Positions 3,042 to 17,740 of a stretch of 21,062 nucleotides of DNA are shown here, one piece after another (the stretch's first letter is position 1; every line of letters starts with the position of its first letter). A program made the position numbers and the translations under genes. This stretch comes from Flavobacteriaceae bacterium (lineage in GTDB: Bacteria > Bacteroidota > Bacteroidia > Flavobacteriales > Flavobacteriaceae): NCBI GenBank assembly GCA_002703065.1, contig PAEO01000009.1, positions 19,763-40,824 of the forward strand, written 5' to 3'. The notes beneath the pieces were generated by a model. It ran no database searches. It saw only the letters and a list, made by a program, of their open reading frames with translations, and had not been told where the DNA came from.

Positions 3042-3590
3042 TTATTTATTTTTCATTTTTGAAATGAAAGCTTTTCTTGAAAGAGGCTCATATTCATCTT
3101 TTTCTCCAGGTAAAACAACATTATCATTCTTGCCTTTTCTATAGCTATACAAAGCAGGTTCTCCAGTTTCAGAGCACACTGCATGAACTTTTGAAACTTC
3201 TTCAGCGATAGCCATTAAATCTGGCATGGGTCCAAATGGTTTTCCAGAAAAATCCATATCTAATCCAGCAACTATTACTCTTATTCCTCTGTTTGCTAAA
3301 GTATTACAAACATCCACAAGCTCAGAAGAAAAAAACTGTGCTTCATCAATCCCAATTACATCAAAATCAGTACTTAAATCTAGAATTTCTTTTGGATTAG
3401 TGACAGTTTCAGCTTTTATTTTAATCTTTCCGTGAGATTTTATTTTATTTTTTTTATTTCTTGTATCTATTTCTGGCTTAAATACTTTAAAACTTTGATT
3501 AGCATATTTTAACGTCTTGAGTCTTCTAATAAGTTCTTCAGTTTTTCCAGAAAACATTGATCCACATATAACTTCAATTCTGCCTATCAT
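3042..3590 (-). CDS. tdk: Thymidine kinase (TK1-like), zinc cysteines mostly missing
   Basis: ATP-dependent phosphorylation of thymidine to dTMP (pyrimidine salvage). The protein has 182 residues. The P-loop is GSMFSGKT at 10-17, the DEAQFF motif carries the catalytic E83, and the GLDMDFSGKPFGPMPDLM segment and the C-terminal lasso (YSYRKG, YEPLSRKAF) are clear. In most type II kinases two CxxC pairs hold a structural zinc in the lasso. Here they read C139-x-x-T142 and S171-x-x-A174, so only one ligand remains. I chose the ATG at 3590. An upstream TTG at 3668 would add 26 residues unlike the family and overlap the start of rsmI. The gene is divergent from rsmI across 40 bases and followed by asd. 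Confidence 0.94.
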   Translation of the reverse strand: MIGRIEVICGSMFSGKTEELIRRLKTLKYANQSFKVFKPEIDTRNKKNKIKSHGKIKIKAETVTNPKEILDLSTDFDVIGIDEAQFFSSELVDVCNTLANRGIRVIVAGLDMDFSGKPFGPMPDLMAIAEEVSKVHAVCSETGEPALYSYRKGKNDNVVLPGEKDEYEPLSRKAFISKMKNK

Positions 3591-3630
3591 AAAATAATAA
3601 CTCTTATTTTTAGGGTAAAGATAAGCTATA

Positions 3631-4302
3631 ATGTCTAAATTAATTTTAATCCCAACTCCAATCGGCAACCTAGATGATATAACTTATAGAGCTGTGCAAA
3701 ACCTTAAAGAAGCTGATTTTATTTTATGTGAAGATACCAGAAGAACATTAAAGATTTTAAATCATTTAGAAATTAAAAAGCCATTAAGATCATATCATAA
3801 ATTTAATGAGCATGATGTTGTTGAAAATATAATTGGCAGGATTCTCTCTGGTGAAAAAGTAGCACTAGTTTCAGATGCGGGAACACCTGGTATTTCAGAT
3901 CCTGGATATCTTATTGCATCTAAATGTATTGAAAATGATATTGAAGTTGAATGTTTACCAGGTCCAACTGCTTTAATCCCTGCTTTAGTTATTAGTGGTT
4001 TACCCTCTGAAAGGTTTACCTTCGAAGGATTTCTGCCAATAAAAAAAGGAAGGAAAACTAGACTTGAATTTTTATCAAATGAATCTAGAACGATGATTTT
4101 TTATGAATCTCCACACAAGATTATAAAAACAATAACTGATTTTAAAACTTATTTTGGAGGAGATAGAAAAATTTCTATTTCTAAAGAAATTTCAAAAATT
4201 TTTGAATCTACTATAAGGGGAACAATTGATGATATTTTATCATCTTTTGAAAATAAAAAACCAAAAGGAGAATACGTAATTATTGTTAGAGGTATAAAAT
4301 AA
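3631..4302 (+). CDS. rsmI: 16S rRNA (cytidine1402-2'-O)-methyltransferase
   Basis: S-adenosylmethionine-dependent 2'-O-methylation of C1402 in 16S rRNA, in the decoding centre. This is a tetrapyrrole-methylase-fold enzyme of 223 residues. Family motifs appear in order: LIPTPIGNLDDIT at 6-18, CEDTRR at 33-38, SDAGTPGISDPG at 81-92, LPGPTA at 109-114, ERFTFEGFLP at 127-136 and YESPHKI at 158-164. It lacks the roughly 60-residue C-terminal extension of the E. coli enzyme (286 residues), and the methylase core is complete. The start is the ATG at 3631, 40 bases from the tdk start. The stop codon merges with the A-tract of a strong terminator, so the gene appears to be a single-gene unit. Confidence 0.95.
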   Translation: MSKLILIPTPIGNLDDITYRAVQNLKEADFILCEDTRRTLKILNHLEIKKPLRSYHKFNEHDVVENIIGRILSGEKVALVSDAGTPGISDPGYLIASKCIENDIEVECLPGPTALIPALVISGLPSERFTFEGFLPIKKGRKTRLEFLSNESRTMIFYESPHKIIKTITDFKTYFGGDRKISISKEISKIFESTIRGTIDDILSSFENKKPKGEYVIIVRGIK

Positions 4303-12704: not shown

Positions 12705-12734
12705 TTAACTAAAATAATTATTTATTTGCATTAT

Positions 12735-13313
12735 ATGCTTAGCAAAATCGAAGCCAGAGAAAAGTATAGAAATCTGAGAAAACAATTACCAGAATCAGAA
12801 TTACTTGACATGAGTTTGGAAATTGCAAATAACCTTTTGAAGTTTAATATATGGGAATTAAAGACTTTTCATCTTTTTATGACTATAGATGAAAATAAAG
12901 AGGTGGATACGAAACCAATTTTCGACTTATTAATAGGCAAGGGGAAAGAAATTATTATCCCTAAAATAAACATAAACAGTAATACTTTAGATTCTTTTAT
13001 TTTTGATCAAAAAACTGTATTTGAAATTAGTAATCTTAGAATACCAGAACCAAAAAATGGAATAGTATTTAATGGTAAAATTGATGTAGTAATTCTGCCT
13101 CTTCTTGTTTATGACTTAGATGGCAATAGGATTGGATATGGAAAAGGTTTTTATGATAACTTTATTAGCAATCTAAAATCAGAACCATTAAAAATTGGTG
13201 TTTCATATTTTTCACCTGAGAAAAGTTTAGAATGTAATAATCACGATATCAATCTAGATTACTGCATTACGCCAAATAAAATCTTTAGTTTTTCAGAAAA
13301 ATCTTATTATTAA
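12735..13313 (+). CDS. 5-formyltetrahydrofolate cyclo-ligase
   Basis: ATP-dependent conversion of 5-formyl-THF (folinate) to 5,10-methenyl-THF, returning a storage or inhibitory folate to the one-carbon pool. The protein has 192 residues, the usual length (YgfA/MTHFS family). The N-terminus MLSKIEAREKYRNLRK is typical. ENKEVDTKPI and NLRIPEP belong to the substrate site, and DGNRIGYGKGFYDNF is the ATP/phosphate-binding signature. I chose the ATG at 12735 over a TTG at 12726, since only the later start matches the family N-terminus. The gene is divergent from uvrC across 30 bases, and its last 29 bases overlap the end of lspA on the other strand. Confidence 0.93.
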   Translation: MLSKIEAREKYRNLRKQLPESELLDMSLEIANNLLKFNIWELKTFHLFMTIDENKEVDTKPIFDLLIGKGKEIIIPKININSNTLDSFIFDQKTVFEISNLRIPEPKNGIVFNGKIDVVILPLLVYDLDGNRIGYGKGFYDNFISNLKSEPLKIGVSYFSPEKSLECNNHDINLDYCITPNKIFSFSEKSYY

Positions 13314-13929
13314 AGATAATCATCAGGAAAATTCCTATTGAAATTGATGAATCGGCAATATTAAAAACAGGTTCGAAGAAAGTAAACTCATTACCACCGA
13401 TTGATGGGATCCAATCAGGCCAAGTCAATGTAAAAAGAGGGAACTGGAACATATCAACAACATTCCCAAAAAATAAACTTTCGTATCCATTTCCAGGTGA
13501 AAAAGTTGCAACCTCAAAATAGCTTTCGGTAAATAAGTATCCATAAAACACTGAATCAATTACGTTTCCAATTGCACCTGCAAGAATCAATGCTAAAGAA
13601 ATTTTTAATATAGAATTTGCTCCTTCTTTAATTGATTTCCTAAGCCAATAAAAGATGAATCCAATTGCAATAATTCTAAATAAAGTTAAGAACAGTTTTG
13701 CAAATTTATCATCAATAAAAGGTATAAAATCATTGAGTTTTGCTCCCCATGCCATTCCTCTATTTTCAATAAAAAGTAATCTGAACCATCCATAATCTAT
13801 AATTGCAGGATCACCATAAAATGTTAATGAATAGTTGAGTTTTATATAAACTTTAAGAACTTGATCAACTAGGATTAAGCCAAAAACTATTAAAAAGTAT
13901 TTTGAAAGATTTAACTTTTTAATTTTCAT
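13285..13929 (-). CDS. lspA: Lipoprotein signal peptidase (signal peptidase II)
   Basis: An inner-membrane aspartyl protease that removes signal peptides from diacylated prolipoproteins, such as the M23 lipoprotein in this window. The protein has 214 residues, against about 165 in E. coli. Membrane segments lie at about 10-28, 80-97, 109-127 and 190-207. Conserved boxes are VDQVLK at 21-26, ENRGMAWG at 55-62, GNVID with catalytic D125, VVDMF with catalytic D159, and FNIADSSISIG at 189-199. The two aspartates are 34 residues apart, against 19 in E. coli, so an extracytoplasmic loop is enlarged. A further loop around 165-185 is also longer. It follows the DksA-like gene by 38 bases and overlaps the cyclo-ligase gene tail to tail by 29 bases. 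Confidence 0.94.
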   Translation of the reverse strand: MKIKKLNLSKYFLIVFGLILVDQVLKVYIKLNYSLTFYGDPAIIDYGWFRLLFIENRGMAWGAKLNDFIPFIDDKFAKLFLTLFRIIAIGFIFYWLRKSIKEGANSILKISLALILAGAIGNVIDSVFYGYLFTESYFEVATFSPGNGYESLFFGNVVDMFQFPLFTLTWPDWIPSIGGNEFTFFEPVFNIADSSISIGIFLMIIFNNKIFLKN

Positions 13930-13967: not shown

Positions 13968-14354
13968 TCAAGACATTTTATTTTTGGCCTCTATACTCAA
14001 GGTTGCATGAGGAACCAATTCAAGTCTTTCTTTTGAAATCAACTTTCCAGTAACTCTGCATATACCGTATGTTTTGTTTTCAATTCTTATCAATGCATTT
14101 TTAAGATCTCTTATAAACTTTTCCTGTCTTATTGCTAACTGTGTGTTTGCTTCTTTTGACATAGTTTGAGATCCTTCTTCAAATGCCTTGAAAGTGGGAG
14201 CTGTATCTTCAGTTCCGTTATTACCGTCATTCATGTAAGCACTTCTAATCAATTCTAGATCTCTTTGTGCTTTTGAAATTTTTTCCTCAATTAATATTCT
14301 AAAAGACTCTAAATCCTTATCAGAATACCTTACTACTAAATCTTCTTTTTCCAT
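13968..14354 (-). CDS. DksA/TraR-type RNA polymerase-binding protein lacking zinc cysteines
   Basis: A predicted transcription regulator acting through the RNA polymerase secondary channel. The protein has 128 residues. A long coiled coil (about 12-95) has its tip around NGTEDTAP (46-53), followed by the C-terminal globular segment YGICRVTGKLISKERLELVP, with the final helix at 115-125. The canonical four-cysteine zinc site reads C99-x-x-T102 and S120-x-x-A123, so only one Cys remains. Of the E. coli DxxDxA tip motif only D50 and A52 are visible. I chose the ATG at 14354. A TTG two codons earlier overlaps the ileS stop. Two bases separate it from ileS and 38 from lspA, indicating one transcript. 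Its role in ppGpp responses is inferred from the family. Confidence 0.9.
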   Translation of the reverse strand: MEKEDLVVRYSDKDLESFRILIEEKISKAQRDLELIRSAYMNDGNNGTEDTAPTFKAFEEGSQTMSKEANTQLAIRQEKFIRDLKNALIRIENKTYGICRVTGKLISKERLELVPHATLSIEAKNKMS

Positions 14355-14356
14355 TT

Positions 14357-17300
14357 TCAATTAGTTTTATAAATTCTAGCTTTTATGCTAATGTTTTCAA
14401 ATTCAATAATCGATTTTGATTCAAGATTTTGCTTAAAAATCAAATCTACAGCTAGAGTCTCATTTTTTACATAATCAAGATTTTCAAAAATAGCTTTTTC
14501 AACTAAATTATTGGTTTCTAGTTCAATAATTATTTTATCACTAACATTATATTTTAAATCCTTTCTTAAGTTTTGAATTCTATTCACTATTTCTCTGCAC
14601 ATTCCTTCATTTTTTAATGATTCATCAATAGTTGTATCTAAAGCAATAGTTTTTCCATTTTCAGAGGCAACCAACCAGCCTTCAATATCTTCAAAATAAA
14701 TTTCAACATCCTCGGGTGTTAATGTAAATTCTTTATCTCCATGAACAATTGTTACATTTATTGAATTATATAACTTTTCAATTTGTTCATTATTTAAATT
14801 ATTAATTAGCCCAACAACAGTTTTCATTATTTTACCGTATTTCGGGCCTAATAATTTAAAGTTTGCTTTAGCTTTTTTAACTAATATCTCAGAGGAATCA
14901 GTAATTAATTCAATGGTTTTAACATTGATTTCTGATTTTATGAATTCTGAAATTTCTTCAAGAACCTTTTTTTCTTCAATGTTTTTAAAAGGAACTAATA
15001 TTTTAGGTAAGGGTTGACGAACCTTAATTTTTTCTTTCTTTCTTAGAGATAGGGCTAATGAACATATATCTTGAGATAATCTGATTTTATTTTCTAATTC
15101 AATATCTATAAGTTCCTTAGAATATATTGGAAAGTCAACCAAATGAACAGAACCAATCTCACTATTAAGATCTTGAAACAAATTGTCCATATAAAAAGGA
15201 CTTATTGGAGATGAAATTATTGAAATTTTACTCAAACATTCATGTAAGGTTTGATATGCTGAAAGCTTATCTTCATTATATTCTCCCTTCCAAAATCTTC
15301 TTCTTGAAAGCCTAATATACCAGTTACTTAAGTTGTCTTGAACGAAAGTTGAAATTAACCGAGCAGCTTTAGTGGGCTCATAGTTTTCATATGAGCTTTC
15401 TACCTCTGCAATTAAAGAGTTAAGCTCAGAAAGTATCCACCTATCCAGTTCGTATCTATTTAAATAAGGAATTGATTTCTCACTTCCGTTAAATCCATCA
15501 ATATTTGCATACAAGCTAAAAAAGGAATAAATGTTATGAATGGTACCAAAAAACTTCCTTTTTACCTCCTCAATTCCACTGATGTCAAATTTTAAATTAT
15601 CCCATGGATTAGAATTTGAAATCATATACCACCTTGTGGCATCAGGTCCAAAATTATCTAATGTCTCAAATGGATCAACCGCATTTCCTAATCTCTTAGA
15701 CATTTTTTGACCATTCTTGTCTAAGACAAGTCCATTTGAAACAACATTTTTATATGCATTAGTGTTGAAAATCAGAGAACCAATTACGTGAAGTGTATAA
15801 AACCATCCACGTGTTTGATCTACACCTTCAGCTATATAATCAGCTGGAAAATATTTTCTAGAATCAATAAACTCTTTATTTTCAAAAGGATAATGCCATT
15901 GAGCATATGGCATTGCACCTGAATCAAACCAAACATCGATCAAATCACTCTCTCTAATCATTTTTTCACCCTTTGAAGAACATAATATTACGGAATCTAC
16001 TATGTGTTTATGTAAGTCTATTTTCTCATAGTTTTCATCACTCATATCTTCAAGTTTAAATCCAATAAATGGATTTACAGACATGAATCCTTTTTCAATT
16101 GACTGTTCAATTTCATAAATTAAATCCTTAACGGATCCAATAATTTTTTGTTCACTGCCATTTTCGGTATTCCATATAGGAAGAGGAATACCCCAAAACC
16201 TTGATCTTGACAAATTCCAATCATTTGCATTTTGTAGCCAATTACCAAATCTGCCCTCACCTGTTGCCCTAGGTTTCCAATTAATCTTCGAATTATTATT
16301 AATTAAAGATTCTCTCTTTTCTGTCACTTTCACAAACCATGAATTAAGCGGATAATATAGAATTGGTTTGTCAGTTCTCCAGCAGTTGGGATAACTGTGG
16401 GTATATTTTTCAACTCTAAACGCTTTATTTTGTTCTTTAAGCTTAATAGCAATTTCAACATCAACTGATTTTTCAGGAACATCCTCATTAGAATAGTATT
16501 CATTTTTTACATATTTACCACCTATTTCATCTAGACTATCAACAAATTTTCCTTGAAAATCGACAAGAGGTACTAATTCTTTATTCTTATTGTAAATGAG
16601 CATTGGAGGAACTTCTGGGACAGCATTTTTTGCTGCTATTGCATCGTCAGCACCAAAAGTAGGAGCAGTGTGAACCACACCAGTCCCATCTTCAGTAGTC
16701 ACGAAATCACCAGAAATTACTCTAAATGCATTTTCTGGAGTTATTGCAGGCTTGGGGGCATTTTCCCATAATTGATGATAATTGACTCCAACTAGTTCAT
16801 CTCCAATAATATTTTCACACACTAAGTATGGTATATTTTTTATTGAGTCAAAATTAAGATCATCCTCATCTTCCACCTCAACAAAATTTACTTTAAAAAC
16901 TTTATGAATTAAATCTTTTGCAAGAATTACATTAATGGATTTGTAAGTATAAAGATTAAAGGTTTTTATTAGAACATAATTAATTTTTTTACCAACTGTT
17001 AAAGCAGTATTAGATGGTAATGTCCACGGTGTAGTTGTCCAAGCTAAAATGTGAATCTGAGAATACTTTTTAAGTTTTTCAGGGAGTGTTTCTTTAACAC
17101 ATTCAAATTGTGCAGTGACTGTTGTATCTGTTACGTCTTGGTATGTTCCAGGCTGGTTAAGTTCGTGAGAGCTCAAACCGGTACCTGCTTTTGGTGAATA
17201 TGGTTGTATGCTATAACCCTTATATATTAAGCCATCATCATAGAGCTTTTTTAGAAGCCACCAAACAGTTTCGATATACTTTGACTTATAGGTAATGTAA

Positions 17301-17740
17301 GGATTGTCCATGTCAACCCAATAGCCTATTCTTTCAGTTAATTCATTCCAAATATCAGTATATTTCATTACAGCTTTTTTACAAGCATCATTATATTCTT
17401 CAATACTAATTTTTGATCCTATATCTTCTTTGGAAATTTGTAGGTCTTTTTCAACACCAAGTTCTACTGGCAGACCATGAGTATCCCATCCAGCCTTTCT
17501 TTCAACTTTAAATCCCTTTAAGGTTTTATATCTACAAAAAATATCTTTGATAGCTCTTGCCATAACATGATGTATGCCTGGCATTCCGTTAGCAGATGGG
17601 GGCCCTTCAAAAAAAACAAAATCTTTTGAATCTTTTCTGGTTGATATACTTTTTTCAAAAGTATTGTGAGCCTTCCAGTATTCTAATATTTCATTAGAAA
17701 TCTGTACTAGATTCAAATTTTTATATTCTTTAAAAGACAT
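14357..17740 (-). CDS. ileS: Isoleucyl-tRNA synthetase, eukaryote-like (IleRS2) with G-x-H-H signature
   Basis: Charges tRNA-Ile with isoleucine and edits misactivated valine. The protein has 1127 residues, a class I synthetase. Domains in order: Rossmann catalytic domain; CP1 editing domain at about 200-450, with WTTTPWTLPSNTAL (234-247) and GTGVVHTAPTFGADD (352-366); KMSKR at 679-683; and an anticodon-binding region with NWYIRLSRRRFW. The C-terminus lacks the four-cysteine zinc module of IleRS1, and the overall sequence is of the eukaryote-like IleRS2 type. The HIGH signature, expected after PSANGMP, reads G55-I56-H57-H58. First and third positions are swapped, as in the mupirocin-hyper-resistant IleRS2 group. 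The start is the ATG at 17740. It heads ileS > dksA-like > lspA, 56 bases after a receptor gene. Confidence 0.97.
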   Translation of the reverse strand: MSFKEYKNLNLVQISNEILEYWKAHNTFEKSISTRKDSKDFVFFEGPPSANGMPGIHHVMARAIKDIFCRYKTLKGFKVERKAGWDTHGLPVELGVEKDLQISKEDIGSKISIEEYNDACKKAVMKYTDIWNELTERIGYWVDMDNPYITYKSKYIETVWWLLKKLYDDGLIYKGYSIQPYSPKAGTGLSSHELNQPGTYQDVTDTTVTAQFECVKETLPEKLKKYSQIHILAWTTTPWTLPSNTALTVGKKINYVLIKTFNLYTYKSINVILAKDLIHKVFKVNFVEVEDEDDLNFDSIKNIPYLVCENIIGDELVGVNYHQLWENAPKPAITPENAFRVISGDFVTTEDGTGVVHTAPTFGADDAIAAKNAVPEVPPMLIYNKNKELVPLVDFQGKFVDSLDEIGGKYVKNEYYSNEDVPEKSVDVEIAIKLKEQNKAFRVEKYTHSYPNCWRTDKPILYYPLNSWFVKVTEKRESLINNNSKINWKPRATGEGRFGNWLQNANDWNLSRSRFWGIPLPIWNTENGSEQKIIGSVKDLIYEIEQSIEKGFMSVNPFIGFKLEDMSDENYEKIDLHKHIVDSVILCSSKGEKMIRESDLIDVWFDSGAMPYAQWHYPFENKEFIDSRKYFPADYIAEGVDQTRGWFYTLHVIGSLIFNTNAYKNVVSNGLVLDKNGQKMSKRLGNAVDPFETLDNFGPDATRWYMISNSNPWDNLKFDISGIEEVKRKFFGTIHNIYSFFSLYANIDGFNGSEKSIPYLNRYELDRWILSELNSLIAEVESSYENYEPTKAARLISTFVQDNLSNWYIRLSRRRFWKGEYNEDKLSAYQTLHECLSKISIISSPISPFYMDNLFQDLNSEIGSVHLVDFPIYSKELIDIELENKIRLSQDICSLALSLRKKEKIKVRQPLPKILVPFKNIEEKKVLEEISEFIKSEINVKTIELITDSSEILVKKAKANFKLLGPKYGKIMKTVVGLINNLNNEQIEKLYNSINVTIVHGDKEFTLTPEDVEIYFEDIEGWLVASENGKTIALDTTIDESLKNEGMCREIVNRIQNLRKDLKYNVSDKIIIELETNNLVEKAIFENLDYVKNETLAVDLIFKQNLESKSIIEFENISIKARIYKTN

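Follow-up and report, generated by a model that had tools for sequence, protein, structure and literature searches.

The ileS gene of a Flavobacteriaceae bacterium (GenBank assembly GCA_002703065.1) encodes a type 2 isoleucine--tRNA ligase (IleRS2) in which the class I signature HxGH is replaced by GxHH. We put a probability of about 93% on the reading that this is the housekeeping IleRS of the organism, most likely its sole one, that its GIHH motif most likely descends from the ancestor of the phylum with no recent gain, and that H57 of the motif is catalytic and renders the enzyme hyper-resistant to mupirocin. The gene lies in a window of 21,062 nucleotides, the whole stretch of DNA that was analysed (contig PAEO01000009.1, positions 19,763 to 40,824), and window coordinates are counted from its first letter. 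Judged by sequence comparison, it is an ordinary, vertically inherited GxHH IleRS2 and one more member of a published kind.

The ileS open reading frame (14357..17740, minus strand) is intact, with 1127 codons and a stop. Its product matched the TIGR00392 ileS profile over residues 6-927 with 957.2 bits (cut-off 621.4), and Pfam analysis identified the synthetase, anticodon-binding and DUF5915 domains (PF00133, PF08264 and PF19302). A sequence-only reading of the window had reported a swapped signature in this protein, and re-reading the codons at 17578..17567 in the frame of the 1127-residue ORF bore this out: GGC ATA CAT CAT (17567..17578, minus strand) encodes G55-I56-H57-H58, in the local sequence GPPSANGMP-GIHH-VMARAIKD. 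In an alignment of seven sequences, GIHH matched the E. coli IleRS motif HIGH residue for residue with no gap, in agreement with the earlier claim of a true exchange of positions 1 and 3 and not a misalignment. Chance origin of the motif is excluded because the same residues recur in all 194 genomes or records, of 197 surveyed, in which the region could be read. The second class I signature, KMSKR (residues 679-683; 15692..15706, minus strand, computed from the ORF start at 17740), has Arg at its last position.

To assign the enzyme to a type, we used published marks that separate the two bacterial IleRS types, among which HYPFE denotes IleRS2 (PMC4861432). HYPFE, which is also a eukaryote-like signature, was found at residues 616-620 of the window protein (15881..15895, minus strand, computed from the same ORF start). 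The column of Tyr-59, an IleRS1 mark, is occupied by Ser-49 (17594-17596, minus strand), a variation on the Phe or Thr that PMC4861432 names for IleRS2 at this position. The IleRS1 mark NKIL was absent, its column reading ARAI, and the alignment revealed no Cys counterpart in the window protein to the C-terminal zinc-binding CPRC...CGRC region of E. coli IleRS. A search of solved structures returned Priestia megaterium IleRS2 entries as the four top matches (757 to 745 bits), led by 8c8w, a GVHH mutant, at 757 bits. The highest IleRS1 structure was 8c9f, a P. megaterium IleRS1 mutant, at 296 bits; 1ffy, which we take to be S. aureus IleRS1, reached 288.5 bits. Given HYPFE, the missing IleRS1 marks and the best structure matches, the enzyme is assigned to IleRS2. 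Canonical IleRS2 enzymes are of the same sequence type (P. megaterium 8c8u and 8c8v, 752 and 750 bits; Thermus thermophilus 1ile, 649 bits) but read HVGH where the window enzyme reads GIHH.

The signature swap and the mupirocin hyper-resistance that accompanies it were described by Brkic et al. in 2023 (PMC10485003), whose Table 1 Ki data agree with the mention of a hyper-resistant GxHH subgroup in the sequence-only reading. According to the legend of their Fig. 2, 86 of 379 IleRS sequences were G/AXHH IleRS2, and every IleRS1 was HXGH. The window motif belongs to this class, which is defined by Gly or Ala as the first residue and His as the third and fourth. Canonical IleRS2 enzymes are reported there as moderately sensitive, with a mupirocin Ki of 1.08 uM for P. 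megaterium and 0.20 uM for T. thermophilus, and exchange of the motif in three IleRS2 enzymes shifted the Ki about 175- to 820-fold; restoring the canonical order in the D. radiodurans enzyme lowered it 823-fold. The published structures indicate that the third His replaces the first, in a position where it would clash with mupirocin. The two natural non-canonical enzymes named there with their Ki are those of Deinococcus radiodurans (ALHH) and, from an earlier paper, Streptomyces griseus (PMC10485003). Both share with the window enzyme the swapped residues 1 and 3, the IleRS2 backbone and housekeeping use, but they come from outside the Bacteroidota. Words beginning with Bacteroid- or Flavobact- are absent from the main text of PMC10485003, although the phylum may still be represented in its tree. 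A literature search combining mupirocin, Bacteroidetes and IleRS found no paper, and searches on Flavobacterium or Bacteroides, judged by title or the start of the abstract, revealed nothing about the IleRS of this phylum.

By analogy with these enzymes, H57 would take over the catalytic contact made by the first His of HxGH, a substitution that the displaced position of the motif in IleRS2 would permit, with adenine still accommodated. This residue would also sterically exclude mupirocin, making the enzyme hyper-resistant with a Ki in the high-micromolar to millimolar range. The protein would thus act as a functional housekeeping IleRS despite its swapped signature. Hyper-resistance is the right prediction in light of the published Ki data for G/AXHH IleRS2, and we regard it as soundly drawn. 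Its level may vary among GxHH enzymes, since the natural ones named with a Ki lie outside the phylum and the Ki of T. thermophilus IleRS2 reached only 35 uM when GVHH was introduced (PMC10485003).

We surveyed the motif across the Bacteroidota. A close IleRS was detected in 391 of 392 genomes drawn from the phylum; the one exception, G176, has the N-terminal part of an IleRS at the end of a contig. The signature was read in a set of 197 genomes or records, comprising the source genome and 29 others with a locus from the draw of 392, 40 chosen to span families, 30 loci from 31 genomes that added new families (G096 yielded none), 11 with odd match patterns, five from the family search, 80 named genome contigs and one Phocaeicola record. 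This set covered 55 of 57 family labels (f32 and f49 are missing), is non-random and weighted to Flavobacteriaceae, and may count some genomes under both a named and an anonymous entry. GxHH was present in 194 of the 197 and an HxGH IleRS in none; in the other three (G276, G528 and G539) the stretch read lacks the N-terminus, G528 and G539 having C-terminal IleRS pieces only. Position 2 alone varied, being I, V, L or M. Rows reading HMGH or HIGH in five genomes that also have GxHH were ValRS by profile. Since every relative with a readable motif shares it, the swapped motif is, on this comparison, an ancient heritage and no peculiarity of this genome. The GxHH state most likely goes back to the phylum ancestor, with no recent acquisition.

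Two further active-site positions set the class of the window apart. KMSKR was found in 128 of 139 genomes or records of this class but in just 1 of the 58 that represent the phylum's other classes (the KMSKS counts include a few ValRS rows). The Tyr-59 column was Ser in 137 of the 139 and Thr in 57 of the 58; the remaining two and one, respectively, lack the region. Our guess is that these class-wide differences may matter for editing or drug binding. A wider proposal, which we hold as tentative and on balance doubtful, is that the swap has become fixed across the Bacteroidota as an alternative catalytic state and is no currently selected resistance trait, and that the Bacteroidia add to it KMSKR and a Ser at the pre-transfer-editing position.

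The source genome is 0.99 Mb in size and 55.6% complete. Its IleRS was closest among named proteins to that of MED-G118 (95% identity over residues 1-928), and the nearest named relatives were Flavobacteriales or Flavobacteriaceae records, from which we take the family to be Flavobacteriaceae, within class Bacteroidia and phylum Bacteroidota. The label MED-G118 presumably denotes a metagenome-assembled genome (MAG) from Mediterranean plankton; going by such MAG names, the source bacterium is probably marine. A FastTree phylogeny was built from 83 proteins and 1009 columns with the motif columns removed, using 79 phylum sequences and four outgroups (an Acetoanaerobium GIHH enzyme, the IleRS of plasmid pTML1 and two IleRS1). 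The closest neighbours of the window protein were MED-G118 and two further uncultured records, and the other Flavobacteriaceae joined next (support 0.985). All 79 phylum sequences grouped together (0.996) apart from the outgroups; some inner nodes were weaker (0.70 to 0.88). The protein is thus nested within its own family, class and phylum, a placement that is as expected for vertical descent. With only four outgroups, the tree is silent on where among phyla the swap arose.

The gene neighbourhood was also conserved. A dksA/traR-like zinc-finger gene (13968..14360, minus strand) overlaps the end of ileS by four bases and is followed by lspA, encoding signal peptidase II (13285..13929, minus strand). 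Of 80 named relatives fetched, 76 had at least about 700 nt of sequence beyond ileS; the dksA/traR-like gene followed ileS in all 76 of these and lspA in 70. The earlier claim of a standard ileS-lspA context thus holds as to conservation but not as to arrangement, the order being ileS, dksA/traR-like gene, lspA and not the direct ileS-lspA order of E. coli. On the far side of lspA, a 5-formyltetrahydrofolate cyclo-ligase ORF (12726-13313, plus strand) converges with it (lspA, 13285-13929, minus strand), the two overlapping by 29 bases at their 3' ends.

The number of IleRS genes per genome was assessed by homology searches. No second IleRS was found in the source genome at its 55.6% completeness, where the only other match was a ValRS piece, identified by profile (C18; L002/L209); the absence of a second ileS consequently rests mainly on relatives. 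None was found in 73 relatives in which all first-look candidates were scored (31 at E up to 1e-60, 11 at 1e-20, 5 at 1e-20 and 26 at 1e-40), although a very divergent second copy could escape the stricter of these limits. Among 199 genomes of the family, with at most four best candidates scored in each, a match was present in 198 and scored above the cut-off in 197. Four of the 199 listed two matches, which proved to be one ORF in two segments in G103, G492 and G571 and one full-length match on re-check in G573. We also re-examined all 40 genomes of the draw of 392 that listed two matches (in batches of 5, 9 and 26). The segments spanned successive parts of the query and lay side by side on one contig, indicating one gene each, save in G276 and G288, where the IleRS gene is divided between two contigs; in G268 there is a stop inside the second segment.

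These data bear on whether the gene could instead be an acquired ileS2-type resistance gene, with a canonical housekeeping ileS elsewhere in the genome. The incompleteness of the assembly leaves room for a second copy, and the NCBIfam models for MupA and MupB of staphylococci do match the window protein, at 723 and 755 bits. These scores lie far below the 1900-bit cut-offs of both models, and plasmid-borne MupA is only about 36% identical to the window enzyme, whose gene sits in a conserved, chromosomal-type neighbourhood. Together with the species-like position in the tree, the single IleRS in the relatives checked and the identity of the second match as a ValRS piece, this led us to reject acquisition as very improbable and to side with the sequence-only reading, which had taken the gene for the housekeeping copy. 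Still less credible are a degenerate signature in an IleRS1, a pseudogene and a sequencing error, all rejected on the intact 1127-residue ORF with 957 bits to TIGR00392, the IleRS2 signatures, and the recurrence of GxHH in the 95%-identical relative and others.

The housekeeping enzyme might also owe its motif to a lineage-specific adaptation of this marine organism to seawater antibiotics that resemble mupirocin, thiomarinol among them. MED-G118, the closest relative with a name, is a MAG presumably from Mediterranean plankton, which would fit such an origin. Marine Pseudoalteromonas produce thiomarinols, which target IleRS, and TmlM confers resistance to thiomarinol, a marine relative of mupirocin (PMC3069032). 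However, GxHH occurs in all readable relatives (194 of 197) across 55 family labels, Phocaeicola included, so the swap is older than this lineage and nothing here points to selection within it. The survey counts against a lineage-specific event and not against an early adaptation of the phylum ancestor. Moreover, the IleRS on plasmid pTML1 of Pseudoalteromonas sp. SANK 73390 (L211), taken to be TmlM, reads HHGH and not GxHH. We therefore rejected lineage-specific adaptation, to which we attach only a very slight probability. A further alternative accepts a GxHH IleRS2 yet holds that mupirocin resistance is not strong in this phylum, other active-site residues (for example KMSKR and Ser-49) being different. 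The class of the window does depart from KMSKS and at the Tyr-59 position, and the kinetic table of PMC10485003 contains no enzyme of the phylum. Against this, the published clash is ascribed to the third His itself, and the Ki shifts of about 175- to 820-fold were seen in three different IleRS2 enzymes. We consider weak resistance unlikely, if less so than the other alternatives, and retain the reading of an inherited, hyper-resistant housekeeping IleRS2.

Two enzymes from outside the phylum were compared alongside. The pTML1 IleRS is IleRS2-like, with HYPFE and KMSKR, and is 37% identical to the window enzyme, but its signature order is unswapped; if it is TmlM, this order goes together with strong resistance to a relative of mupirocin. 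The IleRS of Acetoanaerobium noterae (Clostridia; L212) also reads GIHH and is 45% identical to the window enzyme. It was taken from a 2.6-Mb record labelled as a plasmid, which is probably a mislabelled chromosome.

A separate observation was made in G571, a genome of the same family as the window (L217/L220). Its IleRS ORF extends to 1282 codons through the in-frame insertion of a DUF559 endonuclease domain into the essential ileS gene, immediately behind HYPFE (L217, about 3385-3822; about 146 residues; Pfam PF04480, 117 bits). Relatives of this insert (E up to 1e-15) were detected in 32 of 100 family genomes. Of the 12 best (E at most 1.3e-29), 11 lay in ORFs of 573-1154 codons and one in a 136-codon ORF; the more distant relatives listed were mostly short stand-alone ORFs. 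Profiles identified four hosts: the domain interrupts RecG, LeuRS and MetH in frame and follows the C-terminus of HisD. Inspection by eye of the residues on either side suggests that six further hosts are RecG or LeuRS. These insert relatives were located in L222-L230 and L232, from other genera of Flavobacteriaceae. In L217, the insert has a perfect inverted repeat of 13 nt immediately within its two ends; comparable repeats were not found at the other three of the four DUF559 inserts searched, and no splicing signals were recognised at the inserts by eye. Our literature search, judged by title or the start of the abstract, found nothing describing such insertions. On these comparisons, the inserts look like members of a nuclease-domain family that invades housekeeping genes.

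That a class I signature can be rewritten was a principle already published in 2023. The present case indicates that a housekeeping enzyme can carry an altered form of the most conserved motif of the class I synthetases, here seemingly across an entire phylum. Mupirocin resistance is accordingly predicted to be intrinsic and non-transferred throughout the Bacteroidota, with the warning that such genes in metagenomes should not be called acquired resistance genes.
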